This document shows, one piece after another, positions 46,450 through 48,909 of a stretch of 64,000 nt of DNA; positions within the stretch are counted from its first letter, which is position 1, and each line of letters starts with the position of its first letter. The position numbers and the translations under genes are program-made. The notes under the pieces are model-generated. The model did no database searches, was not told where the DNA came from, and saw only the letters and a program-made list of their open reading frames with translations. The stretch is from Halobacteriales archaeon YIM A00013 (lineage in GTDB: Archaea; Halobacteriota; Halobacteria; Halobacteriales; Haloarculaceae): contig JAKCFM010000001.1 of the NCBI GenBank assembly GCA_025041195.1, positions 2,046,001-2,110,000 on the forward strand, written 5' to 3'.

Positions 46450-46521
46450 GGAGATTCTGTTACTGAATCAGTCTTTCACAATTATTCCTAATTAACTTTA
46501 TAACCGATCGGGAAGGCATAG

Positions 46522-46616
46522 CAACACGAGAGCACAGGTGCGCCGCGAGGGCGTTGCGCGTTCGTGTTGAATGCGCCGGGTGGTTAGGACACCCGACGCT
46601 GGGCTCTCGTCAAGGA
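46522..46616 (+). promoter_or_regulatory. Structured leader RNA with two mutually exclusive stems
   Basis: A TATA-like box (ACTTTATAA, near 46496-46503) should start the RNA at about 46522. Stem A: CAACACGA (46522-46529) pairs with TCGTGTTG (46562-46569). Stem B: ACGAGAGC (46526-46533) pairs with GCTCTCGT (46603-46610). They share the ACGA segment, so only one can form. Inside A is a hairpin (46540-46559, GCGCCGC/GCG..GCGC), and between the two lies hairpin CGGGTG/CACCCG (46577-46595, with a further GCG/CGC extension). Stem B thus closes a three-way junction. The Shine-Dalgarno (AAGGAG, 46612-46616) immediately follows stem B. Haloarchaeal genes are usually leaderless, so this is unusual. Confidence 0.6.
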
Positions 46617-46623
46617 GATACCC

Positions 46624-46761
46624 ATGCAATGGGAGAACACACGCGACCGTAATTGTACCGGCTCACTAAACTACTACAGTCACAGCTGTGTCGTCTGTCG
46701 TCGCCAGCTCAGCGGGCATCGCGATCACCATCTGTGCTGTCCACTGTGGGGTCGCCGATGA
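46624..46761 (+). CDS. 45-residue Cys-rich putative zinc protein (micro-protein)
   Basis: A 45-residue protein with a Shine-Dalgarno (AAGGAG, ending 7 bases before the ATG). It has Cys at 11, CVVC at 22-25 and CC at 38-39, and His at 20, 32, 35 and 36, so metal binding is likely. Its stop overlaps the ATG of the next gene by 4 bases (ATGA), so the two are translated together. No relative is recognised. It follows the structured leader. Confidence 0.6.
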   Translation: MQWENTRDRNCTGSLNYYSHSCVVCRRQLSGHRDHHLCCPLWGRR

Positions 46762-47294
46762 CGCTGCCGCTGTTTCTCTTTCGTGACGAGGATCGCAACT
46801 GTGTGAACCTCTCAACGGTCGATTCCCGGAGTGAGCTCTCCGAAGCTGAGCTCTATCACGTGGTGGATATCGGTCAGGGAACGTGGTGCAGGCCATGCCA
46901 GTCGACTGGCTGTCCGCACGCCACGCGGATCGAACAAATTCTCACGATGGCCGATCTCGCGAGCGAACGAACCGCCTTCGAACATCTCCCCGGTATCGAG
47001 CGGATCACGCGCTATCGCGCAACGGGAGAAACCGTCGTCGCAGCAACGTTCGATACCGGCGCAAAAGTCAGATATCACGAAACGAGAGCGGGCGAAATCC
47101 ATCAGCTCACGTTCCCCGCGTCGGATCCGAAATCACCGCTCGAACGAATCGACCGCCCTGGCTGTGCGAGTGCGGCGGAAGGACTGATCGACCTGCTCGA
47201 TTCGTACGGGCGCTATCGCAGTCTCGGCTGTCCGACCGGCCTCGAAGATCAACACCCCGCCGTTGGGCGGATCATCATCGAAAACGAGGGGTAG
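46758..47294 (+). CDS. Cys-containing protein of unknown function, coupled to micro-protein
   Basis: A 178-residue soluble protein starting MTLPLFLFRDEDRNC. A CRPC-QSTGC cluster at about residues 44-52 (WCRPCQSTGCPHA) could bind metal or FeS. The remainder is a mixed alpha-beta region with TRYRATGETVVAATFDTGAKVRYHE and CASAAEGLIDLLDSYGRYRSLGCPTGLED. The ATG at 46758 is preferred because it overlaps the micro-protein stop; an in-frame upstream ATG at 46653 has no Shine-Dalgarno and lies in the micro-protein. Function unknown. Confidence 0.65.
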   Translation: MTLPLFLFRDEDRNCVNLSTVDSRSELSEAELYHVVDIGQGTWCRPCQSTGCPHATRIEQILTMADLASERTAFEHLPGIERITRYRATGETVVAATFDTGAKVRYHETRAGEIHQLTFPASDPKSPLERIDRPGCASAAEGLIDLLDSYGRYRSLGCPTGLEDQHPAVGRIIIENEG

Positions 47295-47309: not shown

Positions 47310-48056
47310 CTACGGTCGATACGTAACCGTCCCGTCCCAGCGACCGTAGAGATCGTCGGATTTCTTGTCCGGGTCGAACAGCAACACGGTTACCTCCAGC
47401 TGGCCGGAGTCGAACTGTTTGAGCGCCCCGGTTGGAATGTCGATGTTGTACGAGACATCTGGGATGTCATCGAGCTCTCTCGTCCGAGCGACGAGAACGC
47501 CATCGAGCTTCACCGCGAACGTGGGCTCACCAGGCTCGTCCGGCGAGGGATCCACATCCTCCATCACCGTGTTGCCGTGGACTCGGATGTCGAAATCCGC
47601 GTAGCCGTTGCCATTCTCGACCGTGTTGATGAACTGCACGTCATCGATCCGGTCGTCGAACTTCGGATCCGGATTGTTGATCGGCTCTGGTGCCTCCCAC
47701 GGTTCGTCCGGTACAGACGCGCCACCAGTTTGTGTGTTCGACGCCGTCGCCGTCGCTGACTCTGTTGTCGTCGCATCTGCCGGCGTCGACACGGCTTCGG
47801 GCGACGTGGCGTCCGCAGGCGTCGATGTGGGCGTCGACATCGCTTCGCCACCGGTGCCCGAATCGCCACCACCTCCCGACGACTGTCCACCACCGACGCC
47901 CGAACCGTCTGCACCGGACTGGTGATCATCACTCGCACCGGTATCGCTCGATGCACCGATCTCTCGATAGAGATCCGTACAGCCCGCAAATACGCTCACT
48001 ACACCTGCTGAAACCACGCCAAGCAACGTCCGTCGAGAACAATATTGGTCTGTCAT
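47310..48056 (-). CDS. Tat-exported lipoprotein, tandem paralog 1
   Basis: A 248-residue lipoprotein. The Tat signal is CSRRTLLGVVSAGVVSVFAGC with the lipid-attached Cys, and just beyond is TDLYREIGAS, identical in pattern to the neighbouring paralog. A Ser/Gly/Thr-rich spacer (to about 120) leads to a C-terminal domain of about 120 residues: DDVQFINTVENGNGYADFDIRVHGNTVMEDVDPSPDEPGEPTFAVKLDG and ending FDPDKKSDDLYGRWDGTVTYRP. The start at 48056 avoids an unconserved extension. Confidence 0.8.
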   Translation of the reverse strand: MTDQYCSRRTLLGVVSAGVVSVFAGCTDLYREIGASSDTGASDDHQSGADGSGVGGGQSSGGGGDSGTGGEAMSTPTSTPADATSPEAVSTPADATTTESATATASNTQTGGASVPDEPWEAPEPINNPDPKFDDRIDDVQFINTVENGNGYADFDIRVHGNTVMEDVDPSPDEPGEPTFAVKLDGVLVARTRELDDIPDVSYNIDIPTGALKQFDSGQLEVTVLLFDPDKKSDDLYGRWDGTVTYRP

Positions 48057-48225
48057 ACACTGATCGCAACTCCTCAATCGCGAAAATCGAACGGAGCGAC
48101 CACCGTTCGTTACCAGTTACATGTGATACTGACAGTTTTATAACCCGATCGCTTTCGAATCCGTCCGGCGGTGGGACTCCTGAGAGTGCGTTTTCAGCGA
48201 ACCGGAAAAAGAAATCGGTGGCCGT

Positions 48226-48909
48226 TCAGGGCTGATAGGTGACGGTTCCAGTCCATCTGCCGAACAGATCGTCACGCGATTTATCCGTATCAAGCAGGAG
48301 GATTTTGAGCGATAGCTCGCCAGCATCGAACTGCTGGAGCGCCCCCGTTGGGATGTCGAGCTCCCAGGAACCCTGTTTTCGGTAGGCCACAGTGTCCGAC
48401 CGCGTCACGAGCACGTCGTTGATCAACACCGCAAAATACGGCTCACCGGGCTCGTCCGGCTCGGGATCGACATCCTTCATCCAGCTGTTGGCGCCAACCT
48501 GCACGTCGAAATCCGCGTAGCCATTGCCGTTTTCGATCGTGTTGATGATATCTACGTCATTGATCCGATCGTCGAAATCACCCTCATCAATCGGACCGTT
48601 GATCGGCTCTGGCTCTTCCCAGGGCTCATCCGGCACTGATGGGTCTCCACCGCCACCACCATCATTGGAGCCACTACTCCCACCGGAGTCGTCACCACCA
48701 CCGTTGTTGGAATCGCCACCACTACCTGATCCGCCACCGTTCCCACTGGCGCCACCATTGCCACCCTGGCCGCCAGAGGAGTCGTCGTTCGAGCCGTCCG
48801 CACTGGCACCGATCTCTCGATAGATATCGGTACAGCCGGCAAGCGAACTCCCGATGCCGATGGTCGCAATACCAACAACCGCCCGTCGTGTGTATTGTTT
48901 GTCAGTCAT
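48226..48909 (-). CDS. Tat-exported lipoprotein, tandem paralog 2
   Basis: A 227-residue lipoprotein with signal YTRRAVVGIATIGIGSSLAGC, then TDIYREIGAS, a long Gly/Ser/Asn repeat (GGNGGASGNGGGSGSGG) that is the lower-complexity spacer, and the C-terminal domain DVDIINTIENGNGYADFDVQVGANSWMKDVDPEPDEPGEPYFAVLIND ending DLFGRWTGTVTYQP. The close similarity to the downstream gene and the shared lipobox region point to a tandem duplication. Function unknown; the domain may bind a ligand on the cell surface. Confidence 0.8.
   Translation of the reverse strand: MTDKQYTRRAVVGIATIGIGSSLAGCTDIYREIGASADGSNDDSSGGQGGNGGASGNGGGSGSGGDSNNGGGDDSGGSSGSNDGGGGGDPSVPDEPWEEPEPINGPIDEGDFDDRINDVDIINTIENGNGYADFDVQVGANSWMKDVDPEPDEPGEPYFAVLINDVLVTRSDTVAYRKQGSWELDIPTGALQQFDAGELSLKILLLDTDKSRDDLFGRWTGTVTYQP

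Follow-up and report, generated by a model that had tools for sequence, protein, structure and literature searches.

The structured 5′ leader at positions 46522 to 46623 of the window (the whole 64,000-nucleotide stretch of DNA that was analyzed) belongs to a previously uncatalogued haloarchaeal RNA family, whose features resemble those of an on/off switch built into the genes of small zinc-binding proteins. Comparative sequence analysis indicates that the leader probably acts in cis to switch translation, and a helix termed P1 would mark the on state and a helix at the start codon, P5, the off state. Rfam searches with the window leader returned only chance-level matches (CRISPR-DR12, CRISPR-DR29, and mir-329), and the leaders of six relatives gave none above the gathering score. 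We found no description of this RNA in the open-access literature, an absence that does not by itself prove novelty. Most haloarchaeal mRNAs lack a leader, and riboswitch-like leaders are scarce in archaea. The features discussed below are as follows.

46457..47277, + strand: repeated unit (promoter, leader, ORF1, ORF2); at least 12 near-full copies in the genome, with unique flanks
46497..46503, + strand: TATA box TTTATAA, from the sequence and the clustering of TATA-like matches across copies
46522..46623, + strand: structured 5′ leader; new RNA family
46522-46529/46562-46569, + strand: stem A, competitor of P1 in its own subfamily; not conserved elsewhere
46528-46533/46603-46608, + strand: P1, core of stem B, closing the sensor domain; strong covariation
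46556..46576 (46556-46563/46569-46576), + strand: P3 hairpin; covariation at 2 of 6 pairs across lineages
46577..46595, + strand: P4 hairpin CGGGTG-GTTAGGA-CACCCG; invariant stem, hypervariable loop at 46583-46589
46600..46624 (46600-46603/46621-46624 and 46605-46608/46615-46618), + strand: P5, covering the Shine-Dalgarno (SD) sequence and the first base of the start codon; excludes P1
46624..46761, + strand: ORF1, 45-amino-acid zinc-finger-like protein (CxxC...H..C-like); dN/dS of 0.19
46758..47294, + strand: ORF2, 178 amino acids, C-x2-C-x4-C-x-H motif; dN/dS of 0.04

Alignment of fetched copies showed that the whole 46457-47277 stretch (a unit of ~820 bp) is repeated at 75 to 89% DNA identity, with sharp borders and unrelated flanks. 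Leader searches found at least 13 matches in the same genome and similar numbers in its congeners. Counts of the strict hairpin pattern GCCGGGTG-N-CACCCG-GC are 21, 19, 15, 12, and 34 across five congeneric genomes, compared to 0 to 1 for a control pattern. The genus is Halocatena, “Actinarchaeum halophilum” YIM 93972 included; the group contains hypha- and spore-forming strains (PMC10067837, whose main text makes no mention of zinc fingers). ORF2 starts within the end of ORF1 (ATGA). The 45 codons of ORF1 are kept in 22/22 aligned copies, one of which has lost the ATG, and ORF2 is intact in most; both are real genes, since their dN/dS values indicate purifying selection. ORF2 is confined to Halocatena, bar one weak partial match in another family, and a fold search of the PDB with its model (pLDDT of 64) gave no convincing match. 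The 5′ border of the unit coincides with a short inverted repeat at window positions 46458-46482 (CTGTTATTCGAACAG in other copies). Unit fragments, mostly 3′ parts of ORF2, lie near complete copies (L058:2455-2697, L039:4152-4338, L046:639-750, and L049:5218-5349). Downstream of the unit in the window, the minus strand encodes two tandem paralogous proteins (47310-48077 and 48226-48909) with a signal-like start and a low-complexity Ser/Gly linker.

The first-pass annotation of the leader described two 8-bp stems that exclude each other, and both are present in the sequence. Stem A pairs CAACACGA (46522-46529) with TCGTGTTG (46562-46569), stem B pairs ACGAGAGC (46526-46533) with GCTCTCGT (46603-46610), and their overlap at ACGA makes them mutually exclusive. 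The leader folds at −54.6 kcal/mol, compared to −41.3 kcal/mol for shuffled sequences (z, −3.15; 1 of 200 shuffles as good). The proposed three-way junction with two internal hairpins needs correction: the stem B fold has three hairpins, with conservation seen for P3 and P4. The RNA 5′ end had been placed at the first base of stem A from the TATA box. This placement agrees with the start predicted from TTTATAA spacing (~46522-46530) and with 77 TATA-like matches over 85 Halocatena copies that cluster in a single 10-nt bin ahead of P4.

Homologous leaders with P1 covariation number about 90 in Halocatena/“Actinarchaeum” and occur across Halobacteriales as well. All six P1 pairs form in 67 of 69 non-redundant leaders, compared to a mean of 42 and a maximum of 49 over 2,000 shuffles of the partners. 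In a clean alignment, three P1 pairs changed on both sides with 100% pairing retained, and in a cross-lineage alignment, P1 was again 100% paired, with covariation at 2 of 5 pairs. Fully paired P1 hexamers depart from Watson-Crick pairing only by G-U, never by A-C, which argues that the sense RNA, rather than DNA or an antisense transcript, is the folded strand. By these comparative measures, P1 is a real RNA structure. Conservation is confined to this 6-bp core and does not extend to the outer 2 bp of stem B. The P4 stem never varies, so its pairing is not provable by covariation; in Halocatena, a conserved C-A mismatch lies beneath it. A GAACGC/GCGUUC helix is nearly always possible, yet it shows no covariation. 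The bistable pair of the first-pass annotation thus stands in one half: compensatory changes support stem B through P1, while stem A does no better than chance outside its own subfamily. Stem A pairs at 8/8 positions in 15 of 21 copies of its own type and elsewhere as in random pairings; the conserved competitor of P1 is P5. That reading had overlooked P5 and the multicopy, order-wide nature of the leader. One variant (L120, at G005 C4:323126, with two similar copies) carries CACCCGTCGC and lacks hairpin 1; it has a P1 of CAGGCGGC/GCTGCCTG, a start-abutting hairpin, and a different downstream gene.

The 3′ strand of P1 and the following linker are complementary to the bases directly before the start codon, and each lineage achieves this with its own sequence: UGGG(UU)/(AA)CCCA-UG in Halocatena, UGGCUUC/GAAGCCA-UG in Natrialbaceae, and GGUCUUC/GAAGACC-AUG in Haladaptatus. 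P5 duplex energies were better than those of permuted pairings within Halocatena and within Natrialbaceae (0 of 2,000 permutations equal in each); the Haladaptatus permutation was not significant, its nine sequences hardly varying and so being uninformative alone. Combinations between lineages are mostly 3 to 6 kcal/mol weaker, the exception being the Haladaptatus P1 strand with Natrialbaceae start regions. In all but one copy per lineage (80 of 81 for Halocatena, 22 of 23 for Natrialbaceae), the 3′ end of P5 falls at the A of the ATG or one base before it. Of 116 leaders, 108 have bases common to P1 and P5. In Halomontanus, the apical part of P5 varies with pairing kept. An SD sequence, as annotated earlier, is present in the window, but only 16 of 86 Halocatena copies have an SD-like sequence, a sign that control is probably exerted at the start codon itself.

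P1 and P5 rule each other out, and the case for a two-state translational leader is accordingly a good one. In the window, the predicted state with stem A and P5 (−57.5 kcal/mol) lies 1.7 kcal/mol from the P1 state (−55.8 kcal/mol), values that, like all fold energies here, refer to 37°C and standard parameters, while the haloarchaeal cytoplasm is multimolar KCl. When the transcript is cut at 46611, P1 is favored by 6.5 kcal/mol. The earlier claim of a bistable leader ahead of a Cys-rich two-gene unit therefore gains support from P1 covariation, the P5 competitor, and this small gap. For many Halocatena copies, the prediction clearly favors the P1 state (median, 7 kcal/mol); bistability is thus uneven among copies, and some may need an active signal to switch off.

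The leader has the two mutually exclusive conserved helices expected of a riboswitch, one of which would control initiation. In the first state, P1 would close a domain containing P3 and the invariant P4, leaving the start region free and translation on. In the second, the P1 3′ strand and the UGG linker would form P5 with the nucleotides just ahead of the start codon, blocking initiation and turning translation off; in the window subfamily, stem A would also trap the P1 5′ strand. A factor binding the P4/junction region may decide between the states. Comparative sequence covers the P1 and P3 structure, P5 complementarity, mutual exclusion, the invariant P4 stem, and the gene association; we infer the on/off direction, the input, and transcription.

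On its invariant stem, P4 carries a hypervariable loop, which may serve geometry only or make a locus-specific RNA contact. Among 92 leaders, we found 79 distinct loops, always 6 or 7 nt long, and the 7-nt loops have a U-turn-like bias (pyrimidine at position 2 in 79%, purine at position 6 in 96%). In flank-orthologous copies from the two closest species, 25 of 67 sites in loops of equal length are different and 3 of 13 pairs changed length, compared to a difference of 0.195 at four-fold sites from crude ORF sampling. In several orthologs, the loop is completely different although the ~90 leader bases around it match fully or almost fully (GCCAAAA/CTAGGA, TAGGAG/CCACAAA, and TCAGAAG/GTCATAA); in others, it is unchanged. 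Leaders that differ by 1% upstream have loops that differ by 0.52, compared to 0.57 for random pairs. Measured against the four-fold sites, the loop appears to evolve somewhat faster than neutral, with a roughly two-fold excess and not one of orders of magnitude. A loop mutating many times faster than neutral is ruled out, as four-fold sites already differ by about 0.2, and the contrast between the loop and the flanking leader is, as far as these rates indicate, largely one of purifying selection on the flanking leader.

Such diversity would suit a recognition loop for a cognate trans RNA (a cis-encoded antisense RNA or an sRNA) that diversifies against cross-talk among paralogs, as in antisense-controlled plasmid replicons. 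The number of loops, their fixed length and bias, their divergence between orthologs, and the near-random difference between loops of near-identical leaders all fit this model. We nonetheless regard it as unlikely, because an antisense TATA-like sequence lies downstream of P4 within 600 nt in only 3 of 85 copies, some orthologous Natrialbaceae loops are conserved, and a search for a cis partner by position-wise scan, duplex energies, and exact complements against the leader, ORFs and cassette, and flanks gave nothing beyond marginal single tests. By the TATA-like measure, applied in Halocatena, no antisense promoter was found opposite the leader or the ORF start, where a cis-antisense leader of the type I toxin-antitoxin or copy-control kind should have one. 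A candidate Natrialbaceae antisense promoter was rejected: the TATA-containing palindrome in the small ORF varies C-G/U-G/U-A at one pair and is more likely a sense RNA hairpin. The fuller version is distinctly unlikely: an archaeal leader class would read a locus-specific trans RNA via an anticodon-like loop that diversifies and would set start-codon access separately for each of dozens of zinc-finger paralogs, as endogenous orthogonal riboregulators.

If the leader were constitutive, its structures would tune mRNA stability or initiation without switching, and P5 would be a by-product of a conserved start-codon context. The strongly favored P1 state of many copies would be expected from such a leader. 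This explanation is very unlikely, given that P5 complementarity is kept by different sequences in at least 3 lineages and outperforms permuted pairings, and that the Halomontanus apical part varies with pairing kept. A DNA-level element, with P4 a recombinase-type site (inverted arms and a 6- to 7-bp variable spacer) and the unit a transposable cassette, has in its favor a dispersed multicopy unit with sharp borders, the arm-spacer-arm geometry of P4, and joints of rearrangement between this genome and strain YIM 93972 that lie at the repeats (the window unit versus L037, L038, L041, L042, L045, and L048), but it is highly improbable in view of the G-U-only departures in P1, the constant position of the element between promoter and start codon, the lack of a visible transposase or terminal repeats, the orthologous placement of many copies in two species, and the switch points of recombinant copies, whose scatter within the unit suggests homologous recombination. 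In this indirect test, the scattered breakpoints also led us to reject site-specific recombination at the P4 spacer.

Two known leader classes were rejected. For a tRNA-sensing T-box, the loop consensus N-Y-NNN-R-N would fit an anticodon loop or its complement, but stop triplets are not depleted (TAG occurs in four 7-nt loops, the window's own included), and the genes downstream encode zinc-finger proteins and not amino-acid functions. A ribosomal-protein leader was rejected since no ribosomal protein gene lies downstream.

A covariance model built from Halocatena leaders (R1) found matches in other families with P1, P3, and P4 present and different P1 sequences. A later model (R2; matches at E ≤ 1e-4) found the RNA in 106 of 392 Halobacteriales genomes and 38 of 95 genera, with E-values that are rough and single weak matches in some families that may be false. 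Many genomes have at least 12 copies, some up to dozens, and the listed matches sum to at least about 570. A phylum-wide draw gave no R2 match outside Halobacteriales. Carriers on plasmid records include Natrinema, Halopiger, Halostagnicola, and Halomontanus (Natrialbaceae) and Haladaptatus; no viral carrier was recognized, the two orientable IMG/VR matches looking like unrelated palindromes. One Haladaptatus plasmid has up to 28 places similar to a leader-plus-gene query, mostly annotated as SWIM zinc finger family protein, some of them without a leader.

Outside Halocatena, a small ORF with zinc-knuckle spacing lies within 330 nt at 45 of 49 loci, compared to 8 of 293 control positions. Database records name the Haladaptatus proteins SWIM; a Haladaptatus-type protein and one other scored 17.9 and 18.2 bits against Pfam SWIM PF04434 (cut-off, 19.6), and protein P0002 had no match to it. 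The most likely input would be a zinc-linked signal, that is, zinc itself or the small zinc-finger protein (acting in auto- or cross-regulation); both are no more than reasonable candidates, suggested by the zinc-finger genes that almost constantly accompany the leader. The ORF families downstream vary from lineage to lineage, an argument against simple autoregulation by a single protein; since the downstream proteins are not one family, a shared external input would be as plausible as autoregulation.

Like translational riboswitches that sequester the start codon or SD, the leader has a P1-closed sensor domain whose P1 3′ strand is common to an initiation-blocking hairpin, and it is conserved across paralogs and orthologs. 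It differs in having no Rfam match or known ligand, an invariant hairpin with a hypervariable loop, and dozens of copies per genome with almost only zinc-finger genes downstream. CopT/RNAII-type leaders of antisense-controlled plasmid replication share with it a GC-rich hairpin with a mismatch, a 6- to 7-nt U-turn-like variable loop, and a small ORF overlapping the next gene; the Halocatena leaders have no antisense promoter that we found and do not precede a replication gene. Archaeal autoregulatory ribosomal-protein leaders (PMC7247131) likewise precede a small zinc-binding, possibly RNA-binding protein, whereas the genes here are not ribosomal and several unrelated zinc-finger families follow one RNA. 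A start-codon switch that is backed by covariation, recurs hundreds of times across no fewer than 38 genera, is linked to uncharacterized zinc-finger microproteins, and is abundant in plasmid-rich Haladaptatus and the Halocatena group would offer a large model in which archaeal RNA regulation can be tested directly. The pairing of a hypervariable loop with an invariant stem also raises a well-defined question about selection on RNA recognition.

Three further observations concern other lineages. In four of the Halomontanus replicons examined (L241, L243, L245, and L247), the RNA unit adjoins a transcription factor B gene in the opposite orientation. In Natrialbaceae, ~20 to 45 nt past the start codon and within the first small ORF, there is a hairpin CGRGAY-ATAAAC-RTCYCG (L132, L135, L138, L140, L148, and L241-L247). 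Its stem varies with pairing kept, including one U-G, and its ATAAAC loop is fixed; it may be another RNA element or an operator. In Haladaptatus (L137, L142, L145, and L248-L250), palindromes beside the TATA box upstream of the leader vary among copies, as though every copy answered to a different repressor.
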